From the NCBI RefSeq assembly GCF_000621845.1, contig NZ_JHXF01000009.1:1-64000 (forward strand): a stretch of 64,000 bases of DNA, read 5' to 3'. A program made the translations under genes and the position numbers. The notes under the pieces are model-generated. The model had not been told where the DNA came from and searched no databases. It worked only from the letters and a program-made list of their open reading frames with translations. Positions 26,516-45,134 of this stretch are shown here, piece by piece. Each line of letters begins with the position of its first letter. The stretch's first letter is position 1. This DNA is from Ruminococcus flavefaciens MA2007. Its GTDB lineage: Bacteria > Bacillota > Clostridia > Oscillospirales > Ruminococcaceae.

Positions 26516-26522
26516 ATGTCGA

Positions 26523-26556: not shown

Positions 26557-26587
26557 ATCATTATTTTTTAATATTTTTTAAAACGTA

Positions 26588-26616
26588 TTGACGAATTAAG
26601 GAAATAAATGTATAAT
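26588..26616 (+). promoter_or_regulatory. Promoter of the second PBP gene
   Basis: TTGACG (26588-26593), a 17-bp spacer and TATAAT (26611-26616). Confidence 0.8.
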
Positions 26617-26685
26617 AATAGTAGACTTTCCGCGCTGCGGTCTGCGGCGCTAAGCACACATATCAATTTAGGACGGTAATCAGTA

Positions 26686-28155
26686 ATGATAATCAGGGGA
26701 AAAAGACTTATGCCGCTGTTAATAGCAGCAGCAGCAGCGGCGCTGTCGTTTCCGTCCTGTTCAGCAGAGGTAGGACAGTTTGAAGTCCACAATGATAAAA
26801 GCTCCCGCTCGGCAAGGCAAGAAACTACAGAAGAGACAGCTGCTCCCGAAATCACTGTAACTACTACAACTGAATTCGTATATAGGGGGAACATATACGA
26901 TACCAATCACAGGCTTCTGACCTATGGCACATATGCCTATGAAAACGAGGATCAGCGCTATTACGGCGAGGACTGCGGTTATTCATTCGGTAATATAATC
27001 AGTGTGGCTTCGTCAGGTCTTGACGAGGCACTTAAAGACCTGCTCTGCACCAAGAATCCAACCCCTGTTAATGAGAGCAATAATGTTGGCGAGTCGGTAA
27101 GACTTACCATTGACGCAGATAAGCAGAACGAATTATGTACATATATGGCTAATATGGGTATGGCAGGCTCCATAGTCGTGCTGAGAACGGACGGCTCCAT
27201 AATGGCGGAGGCTTCTTACCCTAACTACGATCCCGAGCTGTTCTACTCCGATACGGAGTACAGCAGCAATCTCTACAGCGGCACATTGCAGAACAAGGCG
27301 TTCCAGAACGCTTCACCGGGTTCGTGCTTCAAGATAATGTCCGAGGTCATTGCCGACAAGAACGGCATACACACCGTCTATGACGACGGCGAGTGGTTCG
27401 ACAGCGGCGCTACTATCGTGAACTGGGATCACGATTCGGGTATGTATCCTATCCCCGAAAGAACTCTCAGCTCTGCGTTTGTGGGTTCCAGCAATATCTT
27501 CTTCGCAAAGGTTTTCGACCAGCTTGGCTCGGAAAAAGTCCTTGAAGAGCTTGGCAGCATTTTCCACTTCTGCGATCCCATAGACTGCGATTTCGGAACA
27601 ATCCAGAACAATATCGAGATATACTGCCTTGACGACCTGCGCAGGAGCGCATTCGGTCAGTCCTATGTAAAGACCTGCCCGATATATCTTGCGGCTCTTG
27701 GCAGAGAGGCTGTTTTCGGCGATATGGTAAAGCCCTTTGTGGTACAGCAGATAGTTGATACCACCGATCCCAACAAGGAGTGCGCAAAGGGAAGCGCTCC
27801 CTATGAAGTTATTGCAAGCATACCAAAGGAGTACCGACAGAATCTTCTTGATGGCATGAGGGGCGTTGCAAACAATATAGGCGTTTACGTTCCCGAAAAC
27901 TATGAATTCTTCGCCAAAACAGGAACTGCGGAGACAGGAGCAGGGGACTTCCTGTATATCACAGGCTGTCTCAGGAACGTTGCCGACAAGTCGGCTGAAA
28001 AGCCTGTTTACAGTGATTACAGCAATTACGCTCAGGACGGCTCATACATAATCGTTATGCAGCTTCAGAATCCTGCGGATTTCGGCTTTAATTTCGCCAG
28101 TGAGACAGGTTTCCTTTATCAGGGCATTGTTAATATCGTGCTTTCGGAATATTGA
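26686..28155 (+). CDS. Lipoprotein penicillin-binding protein, class B transpeptidase (copy 2)
   Basis: 489 aa. Lipoprotein signal with lipobox FPSC (Cys ~25). The architecture matches the upstream paralog: GNIYDTNHRLL box, SCFK in SPGSCFKIMSE, SSN in VGSSNIFFAKVF and KTG in FAKTGTAETG, with the intact RRSAFGQS segment in both. The two differ mainly in the linker and in the box 1 region. Separate promoters and terminators suggest independent control. Roles in wall synthesis or beta-lactam tolerance are possible; neither is shown by sequence. Confidence 0.85.
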   Translation: MIIRGKRLMPLLIAAAAAALSFPSCSAEVGQFEVHNDKSSRSARQETTEETAAPEITVTTTTEFVYRGNIYDTNHRLLTYGTYAYENEDQRYYGEDCGYSFGNIISVASSGLDEALKDLLCTKNPTPVNESNNVGESVRLTIDADKQNELCTYMANMGMAGSIVVLRTDGSIMAEASYPNYDPELFYSDTEYSSNLYSGTLQNKAFQNASPGSCFKIMSEVIADKNGIHTVYDDGEWFDSGATIVNWDHDSGMYPIPERTLSSAFVGSSNIFFAKVFDQLGSEKVLEELGSIFHFCDPIDCDFGTIQNNIEIYCLDDLRRSAFGQSYVKTCPIYLAALGREAVFGDMVKPFVVQQIVDTTDPNKECAKGSAPYEVIASIPKEYRQNLLDGMRGVANNIGVYVPENYEFFAKTGTAETGAGDFLYITGCLRNVADKSAEKPVYSDYSNYAQDGSYIIVMQLQNPADFGFNFASETGFLYQGIVNIVLSEY

Positions 28156-28168
28156 TAATACAAAAGTT

Positions 28169-28200
28169 AAAGCCATAGTACATGATGTGCTATGGCTTTC
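28169..28200 (+). terminator. Terminator of the second PBP gene
   Basis: AAAGCCATAG and CTATGGCTTT form a perfect stem just after the gene, followed by a pyrimidine-rich stretch. Confidence 0.75.
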
Positions 28201-28221
28201 TTGGTATAACAGGAGTTTTTT

Positions 28222-30219
28222 ATGGACATTTTTAAGAAAAGAACTGTGATAATAACGGCTGCCGCTTTATGCTCATTCGGTATCCATATGTATGCATATG
28301 CGGCTGATGAGCCATACTACACTGTTAAAGCTCCGCAGAGTGAGGAGAACGGAGTCCTGACTCTTGAAGACGGACAGAAATGGTACAAAGTCAACGGCTT
28401 TGAGGATGAAAACGACTACATCATCTGCGTAAAGGGCAGCGACGGCGAACAGAAGATATTCACTGCCAAGGACAGCCGCAGCAGCGAGTATATCTGGCAT
28501 TATTTCAGAAGAACTATCGTCACCAGCGTTGCTCCGAAGTATACCACGCTGTCGTCAAGTTCATTCCGCCTTACATACCATGAGGGGCAGCTTTATACCT
28601 CCGCAGACTGGTGGACTGAAGGCGACAATGTGTGGGATTACAGCGGCGGTACTCTGAACTTCAGCGAAAACGGCAGTATCCATTATCTGAAATACACCGA
28701 GGACAGCAATGAGCCTTTTTCCTGCACTGATAATGCGGCAGAGGCGGCTCAGGTCTGTATTTACGCAAAGGGCGGGCAGCTTAGCCGCTGTATAGGGAAA
28801 CAGCCTGCCGCGGAGAGCTACGTCATAGAGGGCAGCGGCTATGCCGCACCGAAATTCTCGGTGGAGCTGTCTGATAAAAACATCATCACGGACAGCGTGA
28901 AATGGTTCGTGGACGGCGAAGAGCAGGACTGCGCAAAGCTTACATTCACGGCAGATTCTCTGACGGGCAAGCCTGTGGGAGTTCATCGCGTGGGCTGTCT
29001 TATCGAGGGACACGATGCCGACGGCGTTCACTACAGGGAGCGCTCTGCGGACGCGGCTTTTGTCATTGCAAAGGGAGTTCTGCCAGATTCATTCATGTCG
29101 TTCTCGGATATCCATGAGCAGTATGAGTTCATAGACCGCGCCGTTGAGAAGATAATGGAGAGCACAGGCGGCTATATCCCGTCACTGGTGGTCTGCACAG
29201 GCGACCTTGTAAACGGTCCTACAGCGGACAAGGACAGAATGCTGAACAGGTATTACCCTCAGATAGTGTCCCATTTAGGCGGCCTTGACACGGTGTTCGT
29301 CTCGGGAAATCATGACTCGGGAGAGGCGGCTTCTGTAATGTCACTCAGGGCAGGTCTTGGAGCTGATAAGGATAACGGCTTCGGCGGCGGACAGGTTTTC
29401 CGCGGTATGTCCGAGGCTGCGAAAGCAAAGGGCAGAAACAGTAAATATGCCAAGGGCATCACGGTATACGGACTGAACTTCGAGAATGCTCTTTACAAAA
29501 ATGGCAATGAATTTACTTATTCTTACGACAGAACGCTGAAAGACCTTGACGGCTTCCTGAAAAAGACAGCCGAAAGCTACAACGGCGAGCTTGTGGTGAT
29601 ATCGGCACATTCGGGACTTCATGTTCTGGGACTTCAGCCTGAATCAGTCAATGCAAACGGCTGGTCTGTCGGCAAATGGATAGGTGAGAATCAGTACAAT
29701 GTCGACTATTCCTACGAGCTGGCGAAGCTTATCAACAGCTATGCCGAAAAGTACGATATGGATATAATGTACCTGTTCGGTCACGACCACTCACGTGGAG
29801 AGACAGAGTTCATACTCAGTGACGGCGATACTCTCATAAGCACCGAAAAATACGCCGATTCAAGCTATAATTCGCAGAAACTCAGCTTCACTTACGGCAA
29901 TTCGGGATTTCTGTCAACGACAATAGGCAGTGCAAATGCACGTTTCAGTTTGATTTACCGTGACGGAGACCATTATTCCTACAATATCATGAACCTTGAC
30001 GGCGAGACCGTCCGTCACAGGGATATCAAGGCAAAAAGTGAATTCATCGAGCCTGCTGTGACAACAACAGCGGCAAGCGTTACCACAGCACTGTCAGCTG
30101 CAAAGGCAAAGAACTCCGCAGACAGTCCGAAAACAGGGGACAGGTCGGGAGCTGTGTTTGCGGCTGTGCCCATAGCTGTATTTGCCTTTCTTATGAGCAG
30201 AAAGAGAAAAAATAAGTGA
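28222..30219 (+). CDS. Surface-anchored metallophosphoesterase
   Basis: 665 aa. Signal peptide at residues ~1-28. An N-terminal beta-rich region (~30-270) of unknown fold precedes a calcineurin-like phosphoesterase domain with the family metal ligands in order: FSDIHEQYEF, CTGDLVNG, VSGNHDSGE, ISAHSGLH and FGHDHSRGE. The C-terminus has SPKTGD, a hydrophobic helix and RKRKNK, a sortase signal variant with Ser in place of Leu. The substrate is unknown; secreted members act on nucleotides, phospholipids or phosphodiesters. The RBS (AACAGGAG) fits the ATG. Confidence 0.82.
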   Translation: MDIFKKRTVIITAAALCSFGIHMYAYAADEPYYTVKAPQSEENGVLTLEDGQKWYKVNGFEDENDYIICVKGSDGEQKIFTAKDSRSSEYIWHYFRRTIVTSVAPKYTTLSSSSFRLTYHEGQLYTSADWWTEGDNVWDYSGGTLNFSENGSIHYLKYTEDSNEPFSCTDNAAEAAQVCIYAKGGQLSRCIGKQPAAESYVIEGSGYAAPKFSVELSDKNIITDSVKWFVDGEEQDCAKLTFTADSLTGKPVGVHRVGCLIEGHDADGVHYRERSADAAFVIAKGVLPDSFMSFSDIHEQYEFIDRAVEKIMESTGGYIPSLVVCTGDLVNGPTADKDRMLNRYYPQIVSHLGGLDTVFVSGNHDSGEAASVMSLRAGLGADKDNGFGGGQVFRGMSEAAKAKGRNSKYAKGITVYGLNFENALYKNGNEFTYSYDRTLKDLDGFLKKTAESYNGELVVISAHSGLHVLGLQPESVNANGWSVGKWIGENQYNVDYSYELAKLINSYAEKYDMDIMYLFGHDHSRGETEFILSDGDTLISTEKYADSSYNSQKLSFTYGNSGFLSTTIGSANARFSLIYRDGDHYSYNIMNLDGETVRHRDIKAKSEFIEPAVTTTAASVTTALSAAKAKNSADSPKTGDRSGAVFAAVPIAVFAFLMSRKRKNK

Positions 30220-30223
30220 TATG

Positions 30224-30265
30224 AGTCCGGATACGTAACTTGTTTGCGTGTCCGGACTTTTCTTT
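30224..30265 (+). terminator. Terminator of the metallophosphoesterase gene
   Basis: AGTCCGGATACG pairs with CGTGTCCGGACT (imperfect) and is followed by TTTTCTTTTG. Confidence 0.75.
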
Positions 30266-30288
30266 TGTAACCCCGTCGGTTCCTTTTT

Positions 30289-30296
30289 CATAGTAT
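30289..30296 (+). promoter_or_regulatory. Possible mother-cell (SigE/SigK-like) -10 box of cotJ
   Basis: CATAGTAT resembles the CATA-type -10 of SigE/SigK promoters and lies 57 bp before cotJA. No clear -35 was found. cotJ operons are known to be SigE-dependent in Bacillus; the assignment here is tentative. Confidence 0.35.
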
Positions 30297-30352
30297 GTAA
30301 TGTGCGGAGGACATCTGCACTTGTTCTCCGCGCAGGAAAGGAGGACATATCA

Positions 30353-30616
30353 ATGAAATTGGATCTTTTTGACGATATGGACGGCTTGATTCTCCATGAG
30401 CGTGAAAATTCCCTCGGCGCTATGGAAATGAAGGTCAACATTACCAATAAAGGGCAGGATAACGTATCCCGTTTCCCTGCAAGCACTCCTCTTGCAATGG
30501 CTTACGTGCCGTATCAGCAGTGGGGAGAGACCTACGGCGACGATGAAGCGCTCAGCAGAGGAACGCTTTTCCCCGAGCTTGACTTACCCTTTTCGGGAGG
30601 AGGCGACAGCAGATGA
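30353..30616 (+). CDS. cotJA: Spore coat associated protein CotJA
   Basis: 87 aa from ATG 30353, behind AGGAAAGGAGG; upstream in-frame sequence belongs to the intergenic region. The C-terminal half carries the CotJA hallmark AYVPYQQWGETYGDDEAL followed by GTLFPELDLPF. CotJA is an inner spore-coat component made in the mother cell and interacts with CotJC. It is the first gene of the cotJABC operon; its stop overlaps the cotJB start (ATGA). Confidence 0.9.
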   Translation: MKLDLFDDMDGLILHERENSLGAMEMKVNITNKGQDNVSRFPASTPLAMAYVPYQQWGETYGDDEALSRGTLFPELDLPFSGGGDSR

Positions 30617-30861
30617 ATGAACAGAAAATGCTTCTCGGCAAGATAAAAAAATACGATTTTACTCTCAAGGAGCTGAATCTCTATCTTGATACTCACCCGA
30701 ACTGCCGCCGCGGTCTGGCTATGTTCCAGAAGTACAGGAAACTCCGTGAGAATGCCGTTGACGAGTATACACGGAAATTCGGACCGCTGACACCCGAGCA
30801 GGTCATCAGCAGCGAGCGCTGGATATGGACAGACGATCCGTGGCCGTGGGAAAGGAGATAA
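30613..30861 (+). CDS. cotJB: Spore coat protein CotJB
   Basis: 82 aa. Typical CotJB sequence: a helical start (LLGKIKKYDFTLKELNLYLD), the THPNCRRGLAMFQKYRKLR segment and the Trp-rich end WIWTDDPWPWE. It is the second gene of the spore-coat operon, coupled to cotJA and followed 3 bp later by the first codons of cotJC. Confidence 0.92.
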   Translation: MNEQKMLLGKIKKYDFTLKELNLYLDTHPNCRRGLAMFQKYRKLRENAVDEYTRKFGPLTPEQVISSERWIWTDDPWPWERR

Positions 30862-30864
30862 TTT

Positions 30865-30886
30865 ATGTGGCAGTATGAGAAAAAAT
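30865..30886 (+). CDS. cotJC: cotJC 5' segment (gene interrupted at codon 8)
   Basis: The ATG at 30865, behind AAAGGAG, encodes Met-Trp-Gln-Tyr-Glu-Lys-Lys, the normal beginning of CotJC. From codon 8 the reading enters the inserted element and loses similarity (it continues to a stop at 31053). The rest of the gene starts at 38199. Joining the two at the shared AAAT gives MWQYEKK-LQYPVKIKTPN, an uninterrupted 203-residue CotJC. Confidence 0.9.
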
Positions 30887-30909
30887 CATCGTATCCATGT
30901 TGTACATAT
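30883..30909 (+). other. Left attachment site (attL)
   Basis: Core AAAT at 30883-30886, then 12 bases, then the arm GTTGTACATAT at 30899-30909, the exact reverse complement of the right inner arm at 38174-38184. Confidence 0.85.
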
Positions 30910-31079
30910 GCTGTGAGATCATGCTCTTTTTATAATGCTTTTAGCCACTTGCACAAAATGTTATATTTATGGCATTGTAAGTTATTTGCAAGCTTGTCAA
31001 TTTTTACAGTTTTGAATGTACGTGCTTATACAATGTGCCAAAGTTTTGACTAAAATAAACAAAAAAGCCAGATAATCTA

Positions 31080-31108
31080 TTGACACGAGCAGTAAACCTG
31101 TGTAAAAT
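31080..31108 (+). promoter_or_regulatory. Promoter of the sugar transporter operon
   Basis: TTGACA (31080-31085), a 17-bp spacer and TAAAAT (31103-31108). A palindrome TGTTATAACA at 31124-31133, between the promoter and the RBS, could be an operator for a LacI- or ROK-type regulator, which is not encoded nearby. Confidence 0.75.
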
Positions 31109-31190
31109 GTTTACATAAGCATTTGTTATAACATAATGTAAGGCAACAATTTTTTCACAAATTAAATTTAACATAAGGAGGATTATTATC

Positions 31191-32414
31191 ATGAAAAAGT
31201 TTCTTGCAGTACTCTCTACACTGGTGATGGTAGGCACACTCGCTTCATGCGGCGGAACATCTTCTTCCGACAACGGCGCCGGTGCAAACACAAACTCAAA
31301 CACTGAATCCAAAACAGACGCTAAACCTGCCGATGATTCATCTTCAAAGACAGACGATTCTTCAAGCAGCAGCGGCGGAAAGACTGTTGGTATCGCTATG
31401 CCTACAAAGTCTCTCGAGCGCTGGAACCGTGACGGTGAATACCTCAAGGCACAGTTCGAGGAGGCAGGCTACAAGGTTGAGCTGAAGTATTCAGACAACG
31501 ATACAAACCAGCAGAACAATGATATCCAGGGCATGATCGCCGATAAGGTAGACCTTCTCCTTATCGCTGCTATCGACGGCAACACCCTCTCACAGACTCT
31601 TGCCGATGCTAAGGATGCAGGTATCTCTGTAATTGCTTACGACCGTCTTATCATGAATACAGACGCAGTTTCATACTACGTTTCATTCGATAACTACACA
31701 GTTGGTAAGCTTCAGGGCGAATACGTTATCGACGCTCTTGACCTCAAGAACAGCGACGGTCCTTTCAATATCGAATTTACCGCAGGCGATCCTGCTGATA
31801 ATAACGCAGGCTACTTCTTCAACGGCGCTTACGACGCTCTCAAGGATTATATCGATGCAGGCAAGCTCAAGATCCCGTCGGGCAAGACTAAGTTCGAGCA
31901 GGTTGCTACAGACAGCTGGTCAACAGACAAGGCTCTTGAGAATATGCAGAACACTCTTGCTTCTTACTACACAAGCACACAGCTCGACGTTGCACTCTGC
32001 TCCAACGACTCAACAGCTCTTGGTGTAGCTCAGGCTATCTCTTCCGACTACAGCGGTAAGAATACTCCTATCGTAACAGGTCAGGACGGCGATATCGCTA
32101 ACCTCAAGAACATCGTTGACGGCAAGCAGTCAATGACAGTTTACAAGAACGTAAATGACGAGGCAGCTGCAACTCTCGAAGTTTCCAAGGCTATCCTTTC
32201 AGGTCAGACTCCTGACGCAAGTCTTGTAAGCTCACTTTCTGCTGAGGCTACATACGATACAGAGTCATACGACAACGGTGTAAAGGTAGTTCCTTCATAC
32301 CTCCTCGTTCCTTATGTTATCACAAAGGATAAGCTCGATGTTCTCGTAGATACAGGTCTCTATAAGTGGGACAGCGACAATAAGTATCTTGAGTCAACAG
32401 CTAAGACCACTTGA
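31191..32414 (+). CDS. chvE: Multiple-monosaccharide ABC transporter substrate-binding protein (ChvE-like)
   Basis: 407 aa lipoprotein with lipobox LASC (Cys ~20) and a ~40-residue Ser/Asp/Thr-rich spacer. The periplasmic-binding fold starts at VGIAMPTKSLERWNRDG, with IAAIDGNTLSQTL, VIAYDRLI and GQDGD motifs typical of the ChvE/XylF group that binds xylose, arabinose, galactose or glucose. RBS AAGGAGG. It is the first gene of the transporter operon inside the cotJC element. A terminator after it should keep its expression above that of the membrane parts. Confidence 0.88.
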   Translation: MKKFLAVLSTLVMVGTLASCGGTSSSDNGAGANTNSNTESKTDAKPADDSSSKTDDSSSSSGGKTVGIAMPTKSLERWNRDGEYLKAQFEEAGYKVELKYSDNDTNQQNNDIQGMIADKVDLLLIAAIDGNTLSQTLADAKDAGISVIAYDRLIMNTDAVSYYVSFDNYTVGKLQGEYVIDALDLKNSDGPFNIEFTAGDPADNNAGYFFNGAYDALKDYIDAGKLKIPSGKTKFEQVATDSWSTDKALENMQNTLASYYTSTQLDVALCSNDSTALGVAQAISSDYSGKNTPIVTGQDGDIANLKNIVDGKQSMTVYKNVNDEAAATLEVSKAILSGQTPDASLVSSLSAEATYDTESYDNGVKVVPSYLLVPYVITKDKLDVLVDTGLYKWDSDNKYLESTAKTT

Positions 32415-32442
32415 TGACGAATAATACTGCTATATTGTCTGT

Positions 32443-32472
32443 AAAAGGGCGGGCTCTGCCCGCCCTTTTCTG
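32443..32472 (+). terminator. Intercistronic terminator/attenuator between chvE and gguA
   Basis: AAAAGGGCGGG and CCCGCCCTTTT form a very stable stem with a T-run. Its position between the binding-protein gene and the ATPase gene fits differential expression within one operon. Confidence 0.8.
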
Positions 32473-32526
32473 AATATTCAGGCATATTCGGAACAGCATG
32501 ACAGACAGGATAAAGGAGGGATATAC

Positions 32527-34062
32527 TTGGCAGAATATATTCTCGAAATGAAAAACATAACAAAGGAATTCCCCGGTGTAAAGGCTCTCGATAACGTTAA
32601 TCTGCAAGTCAAGCCAGGTGAGATACACGCTCTCGTAGGAGAAAACGGAGCAGGCAAATCCACTCTAATGAACGTACTCAGCGGAACCTATCCTTTCGGT
32701 TCGTATACAGGTGATATCATATACAACGGCGAGGAGTGCAAATTCAAGACTCTCCATGACAGTGAGGAAAAGGGCATAGTTATCATTCATCAGGAGCTTG
32801 CGCTCATTCCTGAACTTTCTATAGGCGAAAATATGTTTCTTGGCAATGAACGCAAGGGACTTCTTGGTATTGACTGGGACAGGACTTACCACGAGGCAAG
32901 CGAACATATGCAGCAGGTAGGTCTTAAAGAAGAGGCAACTACTCTTATCAAGGACATCGGTACAGGCAAGCAGCAGCTGGTTGAGATAGCAAAGGCTCTC
33001 AGCAAGGACGTTAAGCTGCTTATCCTCGACGAGCCTACTTCGTCGCTGAACGAAGAGGACTCAAAGATGCTCCTTGACCTGCTCATAAGCTTCAAGCAGA
33101 AGGGCATGACCTCTATCATTATTTCCCATAAGCTCAACGAGATATCATATGTTGCGGATAAGATAACTGTTATTCGTGACGGTTCGACTATCGAGACCAT
33201 AGACAACGCAGACCACAATGTGGACGAGGCGCGTATCATCAGCGGAATGGTCGGACGTGAGCTCAGTGACCGCTATCCATCACGCGAGCACAATATCAGC
33301 GACAAGGTCGGCATGGAGGTCAAGGGCTGGACAGTTCACCACCCGTTATATACGGAGAAAAAGGTTGTCGACAACGTTTCCTTCAACGTTCACCGCGGCG
33401 AGATAGTAGGCTTCTCGGGACTTCAGGGCGCAGGACGCACTGAGCTTGCAATGTCTATTTTCGGCAGGTCTTACGGCTCGGATATCAGCGGAGAACTCAA
33501 GATAGACGGTGAGACGAAGGAACTGAAAAATGTTCGTGACGCTATCAAGGCAGGACTTGCATATGTTACTGAGGACAGAAAGGGCAATGGTCTTATACTT
33601 GCAGACAGCATTGCCAAGAATGTAACAATGTCGCGCCTTGAAAAGGTTTGCAGCAAGGGTATCATAAATATTGACAAAGAAAATGCTGTGGCAGAAGAAT
33701 ACAGGGAAAAGCTCAGAACAAAGACTCCTTCTGTACAGCAGGCTGTTGGAAATCTCTCGGGCGGAAATCAGCAGAAGGTACTGCTTTCAAAGTGGATGTT
33801 TGCTGATCCTGAGGTGCTTATTCTCGACGAGCCCACAAGAGGTATCGACGTAGGTGCAAAGTATGAGATATACTGCATCATGAACGACCTTGTGGCACAG
33901 GGAAAGTCCGTGGTAATGATATCCTCGGAAATGCCCGAGCTTCTCGGTATGTGTGACCGTATCTACGTTATGAACGAGGGCAAAATGGTCGCCGAGATGC
34001 CTGCTTCCGAAGCAACGCAGGAGAAGATAATGGCGGCTATCCTACAGTCTGATAAAAAATAA
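32527..34062 (+). CDS. gguA: Multiple-monosaccharide ABC transporter ATP-binding protein
   Basis: 511 aa with two tandem ABC cassettes, the standard form for sugar importers of this class. Cassette 1: Walker [11 protein letters not shown], Walker [13 protein letters not shown]. Cassette 2: degenerate Walker A ([12 protein letters not shown]), signature LSGGNQQKV, Walker [17 protein letters not shown]. The start is TTG at 32527 behind AAAGGAGGG; the next downstream ATG would remove the first strand. It pairs with ChvE and GguB. Confidence 0.9.
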
Positions 34063-34081
34063 ATGATCGAAGGAGTATAAT

Positions 34082-35242
34082 ATGAACGTCAAAACATTCG
34101 TAAAAAAATACACCATGGTCATTGCATTGGTCGTGGTATTCATATTCTTTTCATTCTGGACAGATGGCAAGCTCCTGCTTGCGCAGAATATGTCGAATCT
34201 TCTGCTCCAGAATGCATACGTGCTCGTAATGGCCTGCGGTATGCTTTTATGTATACTTACAGGCGGTAACATCGACCTTTCGGTAGGCTCAACGGTCTGC
34301 CTTATCGGAGCCATAGCGGCGCAGCTCATGTCGAAGCATAATATGAACGCCTATGCGGTCATAATACTTTGTCTGCTTCTGTCTGTCGTTATTGGTATGT
34401 GGCAGGGCTTCTGGATAGGATATATCCACATACCGCCCTTTATCTGTACTCTCGCGGGAATGTTCCTGTTCAGAGGTATAGGTCGTGCTATACTTGAGTC
34501 AAAGACCATAGCTATCAACAACAAGACATTCCTCGATACCTTTGCTTCTTATATCGAGATACCGGGGCTTGACAAGGACGTTAAATGGTCGGCGTTTATC
34601 GCAGGTATAGCTGTTGCCTGCATACTTGTTGTCGTAACAGCCTTCAATCGTATAAAGAAGGCAAAGAAGGGCTACAAGCAGGCTTCTGCTGTATCACAGT
34701 TCGCTAAGATAGCTGTTATCGACCTTCTGGTCATCGCTTACACATGGAAGCTTGCACACTACAAGGGCATTCCTGTAATGGCTCTGTGGGTACTTGCTAT
34801 TGTATTCATCTATGCATTCATTACCTCAAAGACAGCATTCGGACGCTACTTCTATGCAGTCGGCGGAAACGAAAAGGCTACAAAGCTTTCAGGTATCAAC
34901 ACAAACAAGGTCTACTTCTTAGCTTATACCTCAATGTCGCTCCTTGCAGGTCTTTCGGGACTTCTTATCGGCGCTCGTATCGGTTCTATCAACGGCGATA
35001 CAGGTAACTCCTTTGAAATGGACGCTATCGGCTCATGCTTCATAGGCGGTGCTTCTGCATACGGCGGAAGCGGTACTGTCGGAGGCGTTGTAGTCGGAGC
35101 TATCCTCCTCGGCGTTATCAATCAGGGTATGTCTATCAAGGGACTTGACAACAACTGGCAGTACGTAGTCAAGGGTGCAGTTCTTCTTGTAGCTGTTATC
35201 TTTGACGTTGTATCCAACAAAAAGACCGGTAAGGCAGGTTAA
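34082..35242 (+). CDS. gguB: Multiple-monosaccharide ABC transporter permease
   Basis: 386 aa polytopic membrane protein. Family motifs include LLCILTGGNIDLSVGSTV, GMFLFRGIGRAIL, and near the C-terminus GSCFIGGASAYGGSGTVGG with GAILLGVINQGMS. It resembles the XylH/GguB branch. It is 19 bp after gguA with its own RBS (GAAGGAG). It ends the transporter operon. Confidence 0.9.
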   Translation: MNVKTFVKKYTMVIALVVVFIFFSFWTDGKLLLAQNMSNLLLQNAYVLVMACGMLLCILTGGNIDLSVGSTVCLIGAIAAQLMSKHNMNAYAVIILCLLLSVVIGMWQGFWIGYIHIPPFICTLAGMFLFRGIGRAILESKTIAINNKTFLDTFASYIEIPGLDKDVKWSAFIAGIAVACILVVVTAFNRIKKAKKGYKQASAVSQFAKIAVIDLLVIAYTWKLAHYKGIPVMALWVLAIVFIYAFITSKTAFGRYFYAVGGNEKATKLSGINTNKVYFLAYTSMSLLAGLSGLLIGARIGSINGDTGNSFEMDAIGSCFIGGASAYGGSGTVGGVVVGAILLGVINQGMSIKGLDNNWQYVVKGAVLLVAVIFDVVSNKKTGKAG

Positions 35243-35256
35243 GCTGATACCATGTG

Positions 35257-35290
35257 CGGCTCGGGACAGTTCTGTGCTCCGAGCCGCAGT
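35257..35290 (+). other. Stable hairpin after gguB
   Basis: GCGGCTCGG pairs with CCGAGCCGC without a following T-run. It could protect the transporter mRNA 3' end or weakly terminate before the small genes downstream. Confidence 0.45.
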
Positions 35291-35311
35291 TTATAATGGA
35301 AAGGGATCTTA

Positions 35312-35608
35312 ATGATGAACGGTATAAAATACGATATGGCAAAGCGTACAAAGGCAGGAAAGGGTGCGCTCCTCAGGGCAATTGTGGGAGCATATATCGC
35401 ATATCTTGCATTCAAGATATTTTTTGCCGAGGATACTACCATGAGCGTTACATTATGCAGAATAATCGGAATAGTTTTCATAGCGGCAGATATTGCCTTT
35501 ATTGTGTATTCATATAATCTCTTTCAGAGAGAGATGAAGGACGCTGTTATCACCGAGGAAGCTCCCGAAGCTATAGAAGGATCCGACGACAGCGAGGAAG
35601 AGGAATGA
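35312..35608 (+). CDS. Small membrane protein of unknown function
   Basis: 98 aa with two predicted membrane helices (~22-40 and ~47-66), a basic N-terminus and an acidic C-terminal tail (SDDSEEEE). No family was recognised. Its stop overlaps the start of the next gene by 4 bp, so the two are a pair. It lies within the cotJC element. Confidence 0.65.
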   Translation: MMNGIKYDMAKRTKAGKGALLRAIVGAYIAYLAFKIFFAEDTTMSVTLCRIIGIVFIAADIAFIVYSYNLFQREMKDAVITEEAPEAIEGSDDSEEEE

Positions 35609-36030
35609 TACTGAATGATATTCGCGCAGTCTATGAGGAGTACACTTCACAGGTAGCAAAGCTTGAGGGCGAGAGAAAGGCTTGGGACGGTTTTTTAGGA
35701 ATGGGGAAGAAGCTCTCTGATGATCCCTGCCATGACCGCTTTTACGAGGAGCTTGAAAAGCTCCTTAAAGCTTTTGCGGAGGAGAAGCCTTCCTCTGAGG
35801 ATATACGTGCTGTACTGGACTTCATGTACCGTGTGCCCTGCGATGAGGAGCAGCCACAGAGCGCTGTAATGCCGATGAATGCAGTTCACAGCCTTACATT
35901 GGAGCTGGCGGAAAGGCTTTCGGCAGGAGACGCCGAAGCGCTCCTTGAACAGTACAAAAAGGATTATCCGAGAAGCAGGAGATTCCCTGTCCATAAGAAC
36001 GTGATAAAAGCTCTTGAACGCGCCCGTTAA
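35605..36030 (+). CDS. Hypothetical protein (141 aa)
   Basis: 141 aa, soluble and mostly helical (DIRAVYEEYTSQVAKLEGE, FYEELEKLLKAFAEEK), with no signal peptide. No family was recognised. It is translationally coupled to the small membrane protein upstream. It lies inside the cotJC element, before the MITE-like repeat. Confidence 0.65.
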   Translation: MILNDIRAVYEEYTSQVAKLEGERKAWDGFLGMGKKLSDDPCHDRFYEELEKLLKAFAEEKPSSEDIRAVLDFMYRVPCDEEQPQSAVMPMNAVHSLTLELAERLSAGDAEALLEQYKKDYPRSRRFPVHKNVIKALERAR

Positions 36031-36056
36031 AAAGTATGAACATCTAAAAAAGTATC

Positions 36057-36340
36057 ACGTTTAACCATAGTGCTTATACAGAAGTTTTATGCTTATTATT
36101 GAGAGAACCCCTTTTGAAAAAGGGGCTTCTCTCAAACTCTCTCCCTAAAACTTTCAGTTTTATTTTTTCTCATATAGGGCTCGCTCTGTATTATTACAGG
36201 GCTTTTTTATTTTAGGCGAGCCCTATATGAGAAAAAATCAGCTAAAAAAGTCTTTGGAAAGGGGTATGGGGGAAAGCCTTTCTTCAGAAAGGTTTCCCCC
36301 ATAATTAACTATAAGCTTCTATATGAGTATTGCGGTTAAC
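36057..36340. repeat. MITE-like palindromic repeat, copy 2
   Basis: About 284 bp closely matching 7-363 over the GAGAGAACCCC hairpin, the long central stem (TATAGGGCTCG with CGAGCCCTATA, which keeps pairing despite base changes) and the right end. The ~60-bp three-palindrome insertion of copy 1 is absent. It lies in the cotJC element, so the element has itself been a target. Nothing else is seen in the 36031-36359 gap. Confidence 0.75.
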
Positions 36341-36359
36341 CTCGGGACTTTTTTTCAGT

Positions 36360-36620
36360 TCAGTCTATAAGTATCTCCATATTTTTTATATGTGATATGT
36401 CCTGACCTGTGCAGGCTATCTGCATAAGCGCATATGTAATGTCTGCTGCGAGCTTTTCTTCCTCTTCCTTAGTGTGCTTTGGAATGCGGCAGGTGACCGT
36501 TGTGCCGCTGTATCGTGTGCGCAGAACGGCGATTAGTTCGGTGCCATTCTCGGTCTCGCTTATCACATCATATTCAGAGCGCTCCCACAAAGAGGGGAGG
36601 GCTTTTTTCTTTTTGTTCAT
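36360..36620 (-). CDS. Small protein divergent from the recombinase
   Basis: 86 aa, basic N-terminus (MNKKKKALPSLW), a beta-rich middle and a helical segment (KEEEEKLAADITYALMQIA). RBS GAAAGGAGGG. No family was recognised. Its position back to back with the recombinase, with an 89-bp shared upstream region, makes it a candidate accessory or directionality factor or regulator; this is inference from position and size only. Confidence 0.6.
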   Translation of the reverse strand: MNKKKKALPSLWERSEYDVISETENGTELIAVLRTRYSGTTVTCRIPKHTKEEEEKLAADITYALMQIACTGQDISHIKNMEILID

Positions 36621-36709
36621 AATTACCCTCCTTTCAGTGAATTATATGCGGTATTACTTGTACTATACTTGTGTTACCGGTAATATAATAGCACGAAAGG
36701 AGGACAAAA
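36621..36709. promoter_or_regulatory. Shared control region of the recombinase and the small divergent gene
   Basis: Contains an inverted repeat TATTAC...GTAATA, two ACTTGT half-sites, a TATAAT on the plus strand and CATATAAT (SigE-like or SigA-like) on the minus strand. Both genes have strong RBSs at its edges. The sigma factor used cannot be decided by eye. Confidence 0.45.
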
Positions 36710-38170
36710 ATGAAAGAATACTGTATGTACCTGCGAAAGTCGAGAGCTGATGTTGAAGCCGAGGCAAGAGGCGAGGGCGAAACTCTGGCCCGTCATCAGA
36801 ATATGCTCATTGAGCTTGCAAAAAGGCAGAAGCTCAGCGTAGTTAAGATATATAAGGAGATAGTCAGCGGAGACAGTATAGCTGCCCGTCCGCAAATGCA
36901 GGCTTTGCTTGCGGACGTCACTCAGGGGAAATATGCAGGAGTCCTCGTTGTGGAGATCGAGCGTCTTGCCCGTGGTGATACCATTGACCAAGGCATAGTA
37001 GCTCAGGCGTTTCGGGAGTCCTCGACTAAGATAGTTACTCCTGTAAAGACATACGATCCTGATAATGAATTTGATGAGGAATACTTCGAGTTCTCGCTGT
37101 TTATGAGCCGACGCGAGTACAAGACTATCAAGCGCCGTATGCAGGTCGGCAGACTTGCTTCTGTCAAAGAGGGAAATTATATAAGTGCGTCAGCGCCCTA
37201 TGGCTACCGCAAAATCAATCCCGAGCCGAAGGTGCATACCCTTGAAGTTGTTCCCGAAGAAGCCGAAATAATCAGACTTATATACAGGCTTTATCTCGAC
37301 GGACACGGCGCAAAGTTCATCGCAAACGAGTTGAACCGTATGGGCGTCAGTCCGCAAAAGAGCGCATTCTGGGAGCCGCCGAGCATTAAGAAGATACTCT
37401 CAAATCCGCTGTACTGCGGATTTGTTGGCTGGAAAAGCAAGTCCAACGGCGATACTCTCTACAAGGGAATTCATGAGCCGATAATCAGTGAGGAAACTTT
37501 CAACAACGCTCAGCAGAAAAAGCGCACAGCTCCTGCGGTTCAGCTGCGCCCAAATGCCAAGCTGAAAAATTACTATCACAGTATCCTTTACTGCAAAAAC
37601 TGCGGACATCAGCTGAAACGCCGCCTCATTGCAAGCAGCGGTCAAGAGCATATGCTTTGCGTACATAGTGAGTGCCGAGGTAAGATAGTCAGCTCCGCTA
37701 TTGAAGCTGTTGACGAGGCTGTGATAGCTGCATTACGCTATCGTATCAAGCAGTTTGAAAATCTAAAATGCAAAGGCACCAGCGAGTTCGGCAGCCAGCC
37801 TAATATAAAAGCTGCGCTTGCGGCGGAGCTGGAAAAGGCAAGACGTCAGCTTTTAAGGCTGTATGACCTGCTGGAACAGGAGGTCTACGATAAGGAAACG
37901 TTCATTGAACGCTCGGAAATAGTAAATGACAGAATAAAAATGCTCGAAGCGGCTGTCATGGAAGCTGAAAGAGAACAAAAGCCTGCGCTGCTGCCTGATA
38001 AAGCCGTCAAACGGCTGCAATACGTCATAGATAATTTTGAAAGCTCAGACGCCGAAGAAAAAAACAGACTGCTTCATACAGCTGTCAGGAAGATATACTA
38101 TTGCAAGACCGAGAGAATGTGCAGAAATAAGCCATTCTCAGACCTTTCGCTGAGTGCGGACTTCTTGTGA
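36710..38170 (+). CDS. Large serine recombinase (SpoIVCA-like)
   Basis: 486 aa. An N-terminal resolvase catalytic domain (1-~140) with nucleophile Ser in MYLRKSRADVE and arginines in RPQMQALLADV and ERLARGDTI. The recombinase domain (~160-270) has SAPYGYRK and the DNA-binding helices. Then a zinc ribbon (LYCKNCGHQLKRR ... CVHSECRGK, four cysteines plus His), a coiled-coil stretch (~365-440) and a C-terminal helix. The length and layout match SpoIVCA and phage integrases of this class. RBS AAAGGAGG. Its stop is 3 bp from the right arm of the att site. It should catalyse excision of the element from cotJC. Confidence 0.93.
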   Translation: MKEYCMYLRKSRADVEAEARGEGETLARHQNMLIELAKRQKLSVVKIYKEIVSGDSIAARPQMQALLADVTQGKYAGVLVVEIERLARGDTIDQGIVAQAFRESSTKIVTPVKTYDPDNEFDEEYFEFSLFMSRREYKTIKRRMQVGRLASVKEGNYISASAPYGYRKINPEPKVHTLEVVPEEAEIIRLIYRLYLDGHGAKFIANELNRMGVSPQKSAFWEPPSIKKILSNPLYCGFVGWKSKSNGDTLYKGIHEPIISEETFNNAQQKKRTAPAVQLRPNAKLKNYYHSILYCKNCGHQLKRRLIASSGQEHMLCVHSECRGKIVSSAIEAVDEAVIAALRYRIKQFENLKCKGTSEFGSQPNIKAALAAELEKARRQLLRLYDLLEQEVYDKETFIERSEIVNDRIKMLEAAVMEAEREQKPALLPDKAVKRLQYVIDNFESSDAEEKNRLLHTAVRKIYYCKTERMCRNKPFSDLSLSADFL

Positions 38171-38173
38171 TCT

Positions 38174-38202
38174 ATATGTACAACAAAGATATTGTAATAA
38201 AT
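38174..38202 (+). other. Right attachment site (attR)
   Basis: Arm ATATGTACAAC at 38174-38184, 14 bases, then core AAAT at 38199-38202. Joined with the left inner half it makes a 52-bp attP whose symmetry centre falls on the AA of the core. Confidence 0.85.
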
Positions 38203-38792
38203 TACAGTACCCTGTTAAGATAAAAACACCCAACGCAAAGCTGGCAAAGGTCATTATTTCACAGCTTGGAGGTCCTGACGGCGAGCTTGCTGCGTCCCTG
38301 CGCTATCTCAACCAGCGATATGCAATGCCCTACGGCGAAGTAAAGGGGCTTCTGACCGATATCGGAACTGAGGAGCTGGCTCACTTCGAGATGATATCAG
38401 CTATACTTTATCAGCTTACCAAGGACCTTTCCATGGAAGAGATAAAGAAAAGCGGCTTTGACACTTATTTTGTAGACCATACCACAGGCATTTATCCTGT
38501 AGCGGCTTCGGGAACTCCCTTTACTGCAACTTATTTCCAGTCAAAGGGCGATATCATAACCGATCTTTCCGAGGATATGGCTGCCGAGCAGAAGGCGAGA
38601 ACCACCTATGACAATATCCTCAGACTTGCTGACGATCCCGATGTACGCGATCCTATCCGTTTCCTCCGCGAACGCGAGATAGTTCATTATCAGCGCTTTG
38701 GAGAAGCTCTGAGGATAGCGCAGGATAAGCTGAACTCCAAGAACTTCTATGCCTGCAATCCTTCTTTCGATAAAAACTGCGGCAAAGTTTGA
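38199..38792 (+). CDS. cotJC: cotJC 3' segment, manganese-catalase-like spore coat protein
   Basis: Encodes CotJC from residue 8 to the stop (196 residues): LQYPVKIKTPNAKLAKVIISQ and GGPDGELAASLRYL are the conserved start. It carries ferritin-like metal ligands in IGTEELAHFEMI, MAAEQKARTTYDNI and REIVHYQRFGEAL. There is no start codon or RBS for this part on its own; in-frame sequence upstream belongs to the element. After excision it would join codons 1-7 at 30865. The reading frame is fully intact, with no decay, arguing against a dead gene. Confidence 0.9.
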   Translation, partial: KLQYPVKIKTPNAKLAKVIISQLGGPDGELAASLRYLNQRYAMPYGEVKGLLTDIGTEELAHFEMISAILYQLTKDLSMEEIKKSGFDTYFVDHTTGIYPVAASGTPFTATYFQSKGDIITDLSEDMAAEQKARTTYDNILRLADDPDVRDPIRFLREREIVHYQRFGEALRIAQDKLNSKNFYACNPSFDKNCGKV

Positions 38793-38925
38793 TACCGCTG
38801 GGTAATACTTTATATTTGATTTACTGCGCGTATAAATGATGGCTTCTTATTTCGTTATAATATATAAAAAGAACGCTTGTGTTTAGCTGAAACAGCGAAA
38901 TAATGCAAAAACCTCCAATTTATGC

Positions 38926-38954
38926 TTGACTTACTGAGAGTATTATGTTATAAT
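38926..38954 (+). promoter_or_regulatory. Promoter of the LRR protein leader
   Basis: TTGACT (38926-38931), a 17-bp spacer and TATAAT (38949-38954). It drives a leader of nearly 300 nt. The preceding stretch 38793-38925 shows nothing I can name. Confidence 0.8.
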
Positions 38955-38960
38955 GTATAC

Positions 38961-39240
38961 AAGAAAAGTACTTGACTTATCCGATGCCTGAACATCGGAA
39001 ATGAAAAGTATAGATGGGGAATCGAAAGAGGATAATGAAGCTGCCGATTTTTGTCGGCAGCTTCGTGCGTTTACGACGGCTTTTGCGGGAATAATTCGGG
39101 AGGAACCGACTTTTTTTACCTGAATAAGCTGTTTCTGAATGCTGAGAAATGTCCGAACCCACAGAAAAAAAGGATAATGCGGCGGAAAATGTTGAGAATA
39201 ATTGCTTTGCAGGCAGCTCCCGAGCTGTTATACTTGCTTT
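38961..39240 (+). promoter_or_regulatory. Long structured 5' leader of unknown class
   Basis: Between the promoter and the RBS at 39242 are ~280 non-coding bases with a CCGATG/CATCGG hairpin (38981-38998), a strong GAAGCTGCCGA/TCGGCAGCTTC stem (39038-39064) and a TCGG/CCGA stem followed by CTTTTTTT near 39100-39117, which could be an attenuator. It was not matched to a riboswitch class by inspection. Confidence 0.4.
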
Positions 39241-39256
39241 AAAAGGAGTGAGTGAA

Positions 39257-40147
39257 GTGAAAAGGATTCTTTTCGGCATTTTTGCCGCTGTTTTTTTGCT
39301 TATGACCGCAGTTTTCAAAGCTTACGGAGCGGAAAAAGATGATCTTGAATATTCCATTATCGGCGGCGAAGCGGTGATAGTCGGCTTCAAGGGGGAGCCG
39401 ACAGAGGTCGAAATCCCCGATTTTATCGGCTGTTACCCCGTTACTGAGATACGTGACAACGCATTCTGTAATTGTACGTCGCTGAAACGCATGACTCTGC
39501 CCGACACTCTTATGAAGATAGGACATCACAGCTTTTATGGCTGTTATTCACTGAAAAGTGCGGAACTTCCTGAGGGACTTGCCGAGATTGGCGAGGGCTG
39601 CTTCTGCGGCTGTACGGGACTGACGTCTGCGTCGATACCCGATACTCTGGAGATACTGCCCGATTCCTGCTTTCGAGCCTGCACATCGCTTAGGGAGATA
39701 AAGCTGCCAAATCAGCTGAAAGAGATAGGAAATTTCTGCTTTGCAGGCTGCACCTCCATTGAAAAAGCCGAGACAGGGGAGGAACTGCTTTCAGTCGGGG
39801 AGAGGGCTTTTTTTATGTGCGGCAGGCTTAAAAGCCTTTACATTCCGCCTGTTTGCAAGCAAATTGGCTCTCAGGCTGTTGGCTATACCTGTGACGGGAA
39901 TATAGTGCTTCGTCAGCGGGAGCTCCTCGTAAAGGGGAGTAAAGGTTCTGTCGCGGAGCGCTATGCCGAAGAAAACGGTTTTCGCTTTTATGAAGCAGAA
40001 AAGGCTTCGGAGGCATTTTCGGTGACGGGAACTGATAATGGGACTGAGGGAAACCGCTTATGTGAGGTGTTTGTGGGAGCTGTTATAGTTTTGATACTGA
40101 TATTATCCTTTCTGAGAATTGTTTTTACTGATTGGTCAGACCAATAG
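39257..40147 (+). CDS. BspA-type leucine-rich-repeat membrane-anchored protein
   Basis: 296 aa from GTG 39257, behind AAAGGAG with 8-base spacing; longer in-frame sequence lacks an RBS. Signal peptide at ~1-23. About six 23-residue Treponema/BspA-type repeats follow (IRDNAFCNCTSLKRMTLPDT; IGHHSFYGCYSLKSAELPEG and so on), then a C-terminal membrane helix (VFVGAVIVLILILSFLRIVF). Such repeats mediate protein or cell-surface interactions. It precedes two cellulosomal enzymes; a role in surface or fibre contact is plausible but unproven. Confidence 0.8.
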   Translation: MKRILFGIFAAVFLLMTAVFKAYGAEKDDLEYSIIGGEAVIVGFKGEPTEVEIPDFIGCYPVTEIRDNAFCNCTSLKRMTLPDTLMKIGHHSFYGCYSLKSAELPEGLAEIGEGCFCGCTGLTSASIPDTLEILPDSCFRACTSLREIKLPNQLKEIGNFCFAGCTSIEKAETGEELLSVGERAFFMCGRLKSLYIPPVCKQIGSQAVGYTCDGNIVLRQRELLVKGSKGSVAERYAEENGFRFYEAEKASEAFSVTGTDNGTEGNRLCEVFVGAVIVLILILSFLRIVFTDWSDQ

Positions 40148-40235
40148 CTTAAATAATTAACGCTTACAGCGGCTCTGACCATAAATTGCGCTTTGTAAAA
40201 TGCTTACCATTTTGAGGAATATTTGCAGAAATAGC

Positions 40236-40264
40236 TTGCTTTTTCTGTAAAAATATGCTATGAT
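40236..40264 (+). promoter_or_regulatory. Promoter of the GH26-GH9 genes
   Basis: TTGCTT (40236-40241), a 17-bp spacer and TATGAT (40259-40264), about 94 bp before the GH26 start. Confidence 0.6.
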
Positions 40265-40357
40265 ATATATGTGTGTATGCGTTAAGTCCGATATTTAAGA
40301 TTAGGCACTTAAATTATCGGTTTAATAAATATTATACAATGATCTGGAGGGATCAAA

Positions 40358-42361
40358 TTGAAGAAAGAAAAACTAAAGCGGTCCGTGAGCACTGTAGCGG
40401 CTGCTGTCATCGCTGCGGCGGCGATGAGCCTTCCCTCTGCGCCGAAAGCTCCTGCGAGAGTATCGGCTGCCGACAATGTCCTCAAATATGAGTTCGAGGA
40501 CGGCAAGACCAGCGGAGGAAAGATCCATTCAAACGGAGTTTCAGACGTAAAGCTTGGCGACTTCCCCGAAGATACCGACCTTAGCGGATACTCGGGAAAA
40601 GGCTTTGCTTACCTCGACCAGAAGGGTACTACCCTCAGCGTTGAGGTCGATGTGCCCGAGGCAGGTCTCTATGAGCTGACCATTTGCTACTGCGAGCCCA
40701 GCGATCCGCGCAAGAAGGTGCAGTACCTCAATGTCAACGGCGTCAATCAGGGAGAGCTGACCTGTCCCTACACCAACAAGTTCGCCGAGACCTCAGGCGG
40801 CGTGGTAAACCTCAAAAAAGGCAAGAACACCATTGAGCTCAAGGCTTACTGGGGCTATACCTTCTTTGATTACCTTACCCTGAAGCCTGCTTCCGAGAAG
40901 CTGACAAATCTCTCACCTACGAGAGAGCTCTGCAACCCAAAGGCTTCCGAGTCAACAAAGAGGCTTTACAGCTACCTCTGCGACGTCTACGGAAAGCACG
41001 TCATCTCAGGTCAGCAGGAGTACTGCGGCGACCACAACTACAATCTGTGGAACAGTCCCGATGTGTTCATCAAGGACAATGAGGCGGAGTTCGAGTACAT
41101 CAAGGAAAAGACAGGCAAGCAGCCTGCTATCCGCGGTATCGACTTCCTTGCCTACAACACCTCTTCGGACTGGCGCGACCACGCTCCAGAGCGTGTTATC
41201 GAGTGGGTAAACAAGTACCACGGCATCGCAACTGTCTCATGGCACTGGAACGTGCCCTGCGAAAAGGGAAGCGACGACGTTGCATTTTATGTTGAATCTG
41301 CAAATCCAAAGTTTACTACATTCAGTATTTCCAAGGCTCTCGAAGAGGGAACATGGGAAAACGAAGTCATAATGAAGGATATCGAGCTCATAGCAGGCGA
41401 GTTCAAAAAGCTCAAGGACGCCGATGTTCCTGTACTTTTCAGACCTCTCCACGAGGCTGAGGGCGCATGGTTCTGGTGGGGAGCTGAGGGACCTGAGCCC
41501 TGCAAGAAGCTCTACCGTCTCCTCTATGACAAGCTGACCAACGAGTATGGTCTGGATAATATCATCTGGATATGGACAAGCTCAACTTCACCTGCCGCAA
41601 AGGACTGGTATCCCGGCGATGATGTTGTGGATATCCTCGGCTGCGACAAGTACAACTGCGCTGACGGTGTAGCAAATCTAAGCTCGCTGTCGTCCACATT
41701 CTACAGCATGGTACAGATAACCGACTGTGAGAAAATGGTGACCATGTCCGAGAACGACTCTATACCGTCACTTGAAAATCTCGTGAATGACAAGGCTGCA
41801 TGGCTTTACTTCTGCCCGTGGTACATGAACTACCTCACCAGCGAGCAGAACAATCCTGTTGACAACCTTATCGAGATATACCAGAGCGACTACTGTATCA
41901 CTCTTGACGAGCTGCCCGACTTAAAGAAGTATCCTATAAGCGGCGGCGGTGAGACAGTTGTTTCGGGAACTACCACTGCAAAGCCTGTTGTTACGACTAC
42001 AACTGCCACAACAGCAAAGCCTGTCAGTAGTACAACTACTACAGCAGTTACCACAACAGCTCCTAAGCCGACTTCAACAACTTCTTCAGCGGTTACCACT
42101 ACAACAGTGAAGCCCACTGACGGAAAGTATAAGAAGGGCGACGCAAACTGCGACGGCTCAGTTGATATGGGCGACGTTGTACTGGTAATGCAGTCTCTGG
42201 CAAATCCCAATAAATTCGGCACAAGCGGCTCCGACGCAAAACACATCACTGTGCTGGGCGCGGAAAACGCCGATGTTGACACCACAAGCAAAGGACTCAC
42301 TTCAAACGACGCTCTGGAGATACAGAAGTATCTTCTCGGTCTTTCAAAGTGGGATAAATAA
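40358..42361 (+). CDS. GH26 beta-mannanase with carbohydrate-binding module and dockerin
   Basis: 667 aa, secreted (signal at ~1-38). Residues ~42-178 form a CBM35-like module (YEFEDGKTSGGKI...NTIELKAYWGYTFFDYLTLKP). Residues ~180-520 form a GH26 catalytic domain with HVISGQQEYCG, TVSWHWNVPC and the acid/base Glu in VLFRPLHEAEGAWFWWG; the nucleophile is probably the Glu in TMSENDS. A Thr-rich linker and a dockerin follow (GDANCDGSVDMGDVVLVMQ and DVDTTSKGLTSNDALEIQ). It should cut mannan or glucomannan while docked to a scaffoldin. The next gene is a GH9 cellulase 36 bp away, so the two are probably an operon. Confidence 0.9.
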   Translation: MKKEKLKRSVSTVAAAVIAAAAMSLPSAPKAPARVSAADNVLKYEFEDGKTSGGKIHSNGVSDVKLGDFPEDTDLSGYSGKGFAYLDQKGTTLSVEVDVPEAGLYELTICYCEPSDPRKKVQYLNVNGVNQGELTCPYTNKFAETSGGVVNLKKGKNTIELKAYWGYTFFDYLTLKPASEKLTNLSPTRELCNPKASESTKRLYSYLCDVYGKHVISGQQEYCGDHNYNLWNSPDVFIKDNEAEFEYIKEKTGKQPAIRGIDFLAYNTSSDWRDHAPERVIEWVNKYHGIATVSWHWNVPCEKGSDDVAFYVESANPKFTTFSISKALEEGTWENEVIMKDIELIAGEFKKLKDADVPVLFRPLHEAEGAWFWWGAEGPEPCKKLYRLLYDKLTNEYGLDNIIWIWTSSTSPAAKDWYPGDDVVDILGCDKYNCADGVANLSSLSSTFYSMVQITDCEKMVTMSENDSIPSLENLVNDKAAWLYFCPWYMNYLTSEQNNPVDNLIEIYQSDYCITLDELPDLKKYPISGGGETVVSGTTTAKPVVTTTTATTAKPVSSTTTTAVTTTAPKPTSTTSSAVTTTTVKPTDGKYKKGDANCDGSVDMGDVVLVMQSLANPNKFGTSGSDAKHITVLGAENADVDTTSKGLTSNDALEIQKYLLGLSKWDK

Positions 42362-42397
42362 AAAATAAATATTGGTTCACATTAAAAGGGAGGAATT

Positions 42398-45127: not shown

Positions 45128-45134
45128 AATACCG

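Follow-up and report, generated by a model that had tools for sequence, protein, structure and literature searches.

A probable excisable element in codon 7 of the spore-coat gene cotJC of Ruminococcus flavefaciens, and recurrent breaks of cotJC in Clostridia

A sporulation gene broken after codon 7

A sporulation gene, cotJC, has its coding frame interrupted after codon 7 in the window (the whole 64,000-nucleotide stretch of Ruminococcus flavefaciens MA2007 DNA that was analysed). Is the gene dead, or could its two pieces be joined again and, if so, in which cells? A sequence-only reading of this DNA had claimed that cotJC is split by a recombinase-bearing element of ∼7.3 kb able to restore the gene exactly. 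The features around the break are as follows.

30353..30616, + strand: cotJA (PF11007, 70 bits)
30613..30861, + strand: cotJB (PF12652, 103 bits)
30865..30885, + strand: cotJC left piece, codons 1-7 (MWQYEKK), from the sequence; start identical in 20 intact relatives
30883..30885, no strand: AAA core, left copy (attL), from junction comparison
30886..30911, no strand: left attP-like arm, pairing imperfectly with the right arm as an inverted repeat (18/25 pair; equalled by 2/5000 shuffles)
30886..38201, no strand: entire intervening element, 7,316 bp, right core copy included, delimited by the empty site in genome G152 (locus L067)
38173..38198, no strand: right attP-like arm, from the inverted-repeat test
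38199..38201, no strand: AAA core, right copy (attR), from junction comparison
38202..38792, + strand: cotJC right piece, codons 8-203 and stop (PF05067, 180 bits)

Among the ORFs of the window, cotJB lies immediately 5′ of the left piece, and the right piece is open and in frame; the coordinates given earlier for the two pieces (30865 and 38202-38792, open and in the same frame) hold, and the distance between the cores was measured as 7,316 bp. Joined in silico, cotJC has its sole stop at the 3′-end and encodes a 203-aa product in which all residues equal those of the uninterrupted CotJC of G152, with 10 nucleotide differences in 612; joining the flanks at the shared core would restore the full protein, as had been proposed. 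A search of the window's own genome found no joined copy of cotJC and detected the right-hand piece alone. The split is beyond chance, because the same codon is cut beside homologous recombinases in many relatives.

Empty site and ends of the element

An uninterrupted cotJC at the same locus of a relative, which the sequence-only reading had advised looking for, was found in the nearly identical genome G152. Locus L067 of this genome aligns to window positions 22217-30886 at 95.7% and then to 38196-48234 at 98.0%, with the gap between them empty; it is a clean empty site for the window element.

The shared tetramer AAAT, named earlier as the point of joining, is indeed present at 30883-30886 and 38199-38202. 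In comparison with other elements, AAA (codon 7) was the part common to 8/8 junction pairs examined at this site (site A below), the T not being shared in several. Considering 22 left/right junction pairs, we saw that codon register was kept in all and that the core was uninterrupted at the site in most; weak cores were observed at site C of locus L082 and in L046/L047.

Around the AAA core of the window element, 18 of 25 arm positions pair. A comparison made without register shift gave 4/24 and looked negative; the repeat appears at shift 1 once shifts are allowed, and the shuffled controls, of which 2 in 5000 were as good, were given the same shift freedom as the real arms. An attP-like inverted repeat was observed at the ends of 7/7 site-A elements tested, with the six non-window elements pairing at 14-21 of 25 positions. 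In the site-A element of L082 the letters differ in both arms and pairing is still 21/25; 25 of 5000 shuffles did as well as the weakest repeat, that of L069 (14/25). By their letters, the ends of the window element resemble the attP of a serine integrase, an imperfect inverted repeat around a core.

Recombinase and divergent ORF

Two genes of the element could be related to its movement.

36710..38170, + strand: large serine recombinase, 486 aa (PF00239 and PF07508; site-A clade)
36360..36620, - strand: 86-aa ORF divergent from the recombinase, candidate directionality factor (10 site-A element loci; 98 homologues)

A large serine recombinase had been placed at the right end of the element, and its gene does end there, 31 bp 5′ of codon 8. 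The serine of the YLRKS motif, which we take to be the catalytic serine, is invariant in 11 aligned site-A recombinases. Six more large serine recombinases are encoded on contigs C10, C12 and C13 of the window's genome (G000).

Homologues of the 86-aa ORF were found at 10 site-A element loci, and at 24 of the 80 recombinase loci from named genomes; a protein search found 98. Eight of 11 site-A recombinase loci have a homologue, with none in L033, L034 and L038 within the stretch examined; the site-C insert of L082, at 1.5 kb, is too small to contain such an ORF. The predicted structure of the protein has a mean pLDDT of 79 and a pTM of 0.48, and its predicted fold had no PDB match at E ≤ 0.001. 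Small ORFs adjacent to recombinases are conserved by site: the 86-aa family is common to sites A and C, and the counts at the other sites are 8/8 (E), 6/7 (F), 4/7 (B) and 0/3 (D). By their position next to site-specific recombinases such ORFs are candidates for directionality factors, and the 86-aa protein may be the recombination directionality factor of the window element.

A -10-like box, CATA, is located 5′ of the 86-aa ORF in 8/10 loci, where it coincides in part with a TATAAT-like sigma-A -10 and lacks a convincing -35; a CATA-like box is also present upstream of cotJA in many loci. CATA -10 boxes can be read as sigma-E-like. Since the -35 parts vary and the sigma-A reading fits too, we did not take the boxes as proof of sigma-E control.

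Cargo

The remaining ORFs of the window element are listed below.

31191..32414, + strand: sugar-binding lipoprotein (Peripla_BP_4, PF13407); 99% identical protein elsewhere in G152
32527..34062, + strand: ABC transporter ATPase (PF00005)
34082..35242, + strand: ABC transporter permease (PF02653)
35312..35608, + strand: ORF without Pfam match (ORF list, Pfam)
35605..36030, + strand: ORF without Pfam match; 35606-36018 aligns with the ABC locus of G152

No phage structural genes are present in the window element; its contents are the ABC operon, two unassigned ORFs, the 86-aa ORF and the recombinase. Window positions 30994-36018 (the ABC operon and one more gene) match locus L087 of G152, located outside cotJC, at 92% and 81%, and from this match we infer that a host sugar-ABC operon moved into the element. 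No second close copy of the operon was found in G000, where the former neighbourhood of the operon lies, rearranged, on contig C9. The notion that the element's purpose is to be a mobile ABC transporter was rejected, as relatives carry the same operon outside cotJC; a self-splicing intron (group I or II) was rejected as well, since an Rfam search of 30000-39500 gave nothing at gathering score.

Other elements have other contents. Dockerin-bearing enzymes are encoded in two further site-A elements (polysaccharide deacetylase in L070, pectate lyase in L035). The site-C element of genome G177 (L076/L077), with terminase, portal, head, tape measure and Dit genes, is an apparent siphophage prophage; the site-C insert of L082 (∼1.5 kb) has one recombinase gene only.

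Recurrence of cotJC breaks

In a survey of the genus, 125 genomes were searched, 106 matched and 100 were tabulated; the six matching genomes left out of the table had weak, paralogous or unlisted matches. We excluded rows with 33-38% identity, which belong to a Mn-catalase paralogue, together with a few short rows at the right end. In 80 of the 100 tabulated genomes cotJC was seen in pieces only (in two of these, G079 and G006, a contig end interrupts the gene), and in the other 20 genomes, codons 1 to ∼202 were unbroken. The breaks recur at six sites: A, codon 7; B, codons 30-31; F, 61-62; C, 64-65; D, ∼134-136; E, 176-177. Some site labels are uncertain: label D of G053 and G044 reflects alignment overrun into the recombinase frame, and G049 is B+F, not A+F.

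On the basis of profile boundaries, cotJC is broken at least twice in no fewer than 26 genomes. Junctions were inspected in 18 genomes with two or more breaks, G007 and G067 having earlier been labelled with one. In L082 (an 11.8-kb MAG contig of G037), sites A, B and C are complete, E is represented by its left end, and cotJC is thus in five pieces. The site-A element is carried by the R. flavefaciens isolates YRD2003, Y1 and ATCC 19208; cotJC is also split in the single-contig genomes G289 and G330.

Several observations stand apart from these six sites. In genome G372 (L266/L267) cotJC has an extra break near codon 113; the pieces are separated by 107 kb, and a recombinase adjoins the right one. 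In L040 (G029, contig C9), the cotJC 3′ piece is followed downstream, on the opposite strand, by cotJB and codons 1-7, as if the segment between att sites had been inverted or the contig misjoined. Another gene, spoIIID (encoding a mother-cell regulator), is in two pieces in 9/125 genomes of the genus, with the break near profile position 34-42; in the three genomes inspected, G171 (L258), G064 (L259/L260) and G029 (L261), VHKD/VHMD in the helix-turn-helix is common to the pieces, with a recombinase nearby.

A scan of named-genome contigs with site-A recombinases gave 80 loci. Among the 49 with recombinase identity of at least 51%, 37 were within 400 bp of a cotJC border and 12 had no border that close; among the 31 below 51%, 19 were within 400 bp of a cotJC border, at codons near 61-68, and 12 again had none that close. 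The 19 include loci of Sedimentibacter acidaminivorans DSM 24004, Anaerovorax odorimutans SL.3.17, Hominisplanchenecus faecis CLA-AA-H246 and Ruminococcus sp. Marseille-P6503. In a class-wide sample 125 of 195 genomes match CotJC and, among the matches listed, at least 28 genomes have a CotJC row starting at codons 52-65, some of them near contig ends. Six of these were inspected (L262-L265, L268 and L269); five have a recombinase within the stretch examined, and at the split-like cotJC of L269 (G303) the recombinase queries matched none. Locus L263 (G289; single contig, 4.07 Mb) contains three cotJC pieces and two recombinases.

An IMG/VR contig, IMGVR_UViG_3300018495_002670 (L139), carries a site-A recombinase, a member of the 86-aa family and cotJC codons 8-65; its presence in a viral collection means that such cotJC elements are catalogued as viruses.

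Recombinase clades

Recombinases of the first set (11 from site A, 7 from B, 7 from C, 3 from D and 8 from E) formed one clade per site, with support of 100/97 or better. In a larger set, those of A (12), B (8), D (4), E (8) and F (8) each formed a single clade; those of C (9) did not, since one of them, L132 (from a different family of the order), falls beside A. Its position points to an origin of the site-A family among the recombinases of site C.

Selection on cotJC pieces

Relatives sharing a decayed cotJC, which the sequence-only reading had named as the sign of a fixed insertion, were not what we saw: the pieces show no decay, and 0/71 genomes had stops in unmasked cotJC codons. The median dN/dS was 0.038 for split cotJC, with a maximum of 0.144 (45 usable pairs from 51 genomes), and that of intact cotJC was 0.040, with a maximum of 0.074 (9 usable pairs from 20 genomes), most pairs having been dropped with silent sites saturated. 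Pooled by region, pN/pS was 0.10-0.14 for split and 0.12-0.13 for intact genes, and inside single sites it was 0.03-0.18. Even pieces of 24-33 codons flanked by two elements (L038, L039, L082 and L263) are conserved. Pieces of cotJC unable to function singly are maintained like a working gene and, being stop-free and constrained like intact genes, are very likely to be rejoined.

Explanations of the split gene

We consider it probable that cotJC has in its codon 7 a site-specific recombination element that is cut out by its own recombinase, likely in the mother cell only. The serine recombinase would excise the element precisely at the AAA core, and the 86-aa divergent protein likely assists as directionality factor; with excision likely limited to the mother cell, CotJC would become available for the spore coat and the spore chromosome would retain the element. 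Recombinase-driven rejoining, as claimed earlier, is strongly supported by the relative with an empty site, the attP-like ends, the clade dedicated to the site and purifying selection. Confinement of excision to the mother cell during sporulation is suggested by the known mother-cell regulon of cotJC (in B. subtilis the gene is listed under sigma-E control, PMC3416734) and by the precedents of skin, gin and spsM.

The window's genome has SpoIVA and SpoIIID, and its SigK-like gene scores 277 bits, under the curated cut-off of 298.65. R. bromii is described as a spore former (PMC5814915); literature searches found no report on sporulation of R. flavefaciens-type strains. The circle (attP) junction had 0 matches in viral_contigs, searched with a degenerate pattern built from the ends of the window element and its relatives, and 0 in the 125 genus genomes at up to 2 mismatches, although in assemblies of vegetative cells one would not expect to see it.

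Excision could be real and yet not developmental, a low-rate loss in growing cells (by induction, stress or chance) with selection keeping the minority that has an intact gene. Some relatives' elements do look like complete prophages (L076/L077), the yin element of C. botulinum was reported integrated and excised in one culture at every time point (PMC10747680), and a chromosome free of the element exists (G152). We nevertheless find this explanation rather unlikely: split copies are under selection as strong as intact ones, and L082 would need four independent simultaneous excisions, which a low random rate would make rare.

A fixed insertion, with cotJC dead or its right piece expressed alone from an internal start, could draw on the right piece of the window, whose frame can be extended upstream to a GTG start at 38154, for 212 aa in all. 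However, L032 and L049 have a stop four codons before codon 8 and no start codon between, the conserved pieces of 24-33 codons are non-functional alone, and the stop-free codons of all 71 genomes speak against decay; we regard this account as very improbable. Still harder to credit is an assembly artefact or chimeric contig, even though the genomes include many drafts and MAGs and the ABC operon is elsewhere in G152, with its former neighbourhood rearranged in G000: the ends of the element agree with those in other species, the three named isolates carry it, and cotJC is split in the single-contig genomes G289 and G330.

Returning to excision in the mother cell, the window element would be one of several families housed in cotJC, whose contents appear to vary from a siphophage prophage to the 1.5-kb insert with a recombinase only, that of the window being a carrier of a host sugar-transport operon. 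A mother-cell coat gene would be a safe home, since the excising cell dies, and selection for good spores would preserve both the pieces and the excision machinery. We lean, with some reserve, toward a broader picture, in which cotJC of Ruminococcus and other Clostridia is a gene kept in DNA pieces, with at least six homing sites in 203 codons and a dedicated recombinase family for each; the mother cell would splice its chromosome one to four times before coat assembly, and the segments would be safe storage for prophages and for the host's own genes of fibre and sugar use.

Developmental DNA splicing in spore formers, so far a matter of isolated examples, would then become a regular feature of one coat gene across Clostridia, and the 600 bp of this gene would be the shared target of several independent recombinase families. 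The question raised is why cotJC, and whether order or timing of excision governs coat assembly in gut bacteria rarely considered spore formers. Joined cotJC in cultured R. flavefaciens isolates would mark mother-cell fate at the DNA level. Also, a set of recombinases would be gained, each with its native site and a candidate directionality factor, and in annotation cotJC will appear missing or broken in many genomes though it is probably functional.

Comparison with known systems

Sporulation genes reported as split include sigK, spoVFB, spoVR, spsM, gerE and kamA (PMC6957869), as well as yabG (PMC10747680); our literature searches of open-licence papers found no report of a split cotJC. The gin element in gerE of Bacillus cereus ATCC10987, as described in PMC5595907, is similar in being a non-phage element in a mother-cell gene, with a large serine recombinase, a short shared core with inverted repeats and a small partner protein (GirX, 42 aa), for which the 86-aa protein would be the candidate counterpart. 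Unlike the cotJC element, gin has 28.6 kb, three recombinases and a single insertion, in gerE; its excision was demonstrated by PCR, Southern blot and in vitro (PMC5595907), whereas that of the cotJC element is predicted.

The skin elements in sigK of C. difficile and B. subtilis share with the cotJC element a small directionality factor (in cotJC the candidate 86-aa protein) and, in C. difficile, a recombinase gene adjoining the 3′ piece; they differ in that sigK encodes a regulator and cotJC a coat protein, and in being prophage-like, with one element per gene (PMC5025042). The SPβ prophage in spsM of B. subtilis likewise has an integrase and RDF unit (the RDF of the cotJC element being a candidate), and the spsM site, like cotJC, holds full prophages as well as short remnants (4-20 kb in B. 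amyloliquefaciens); however, the accounts of SPβ give one site in spsM (PMC4191935, PMC6957869) as against six in cotJC, with a recombinase clade per site. Interruption elements of heterocyst cyanobacteria are alike in cutting developmental genes with excisable DNA, the Rivularia nifD carrying four, and unlike in host phylum, cell fate and genes (PMC4874684). Excisable elements in sporulation genes are thus of a known kind (skin, gin, SPβ-spsM); the housing of several dedicated elements in one coat gene was not found in the literature searched.
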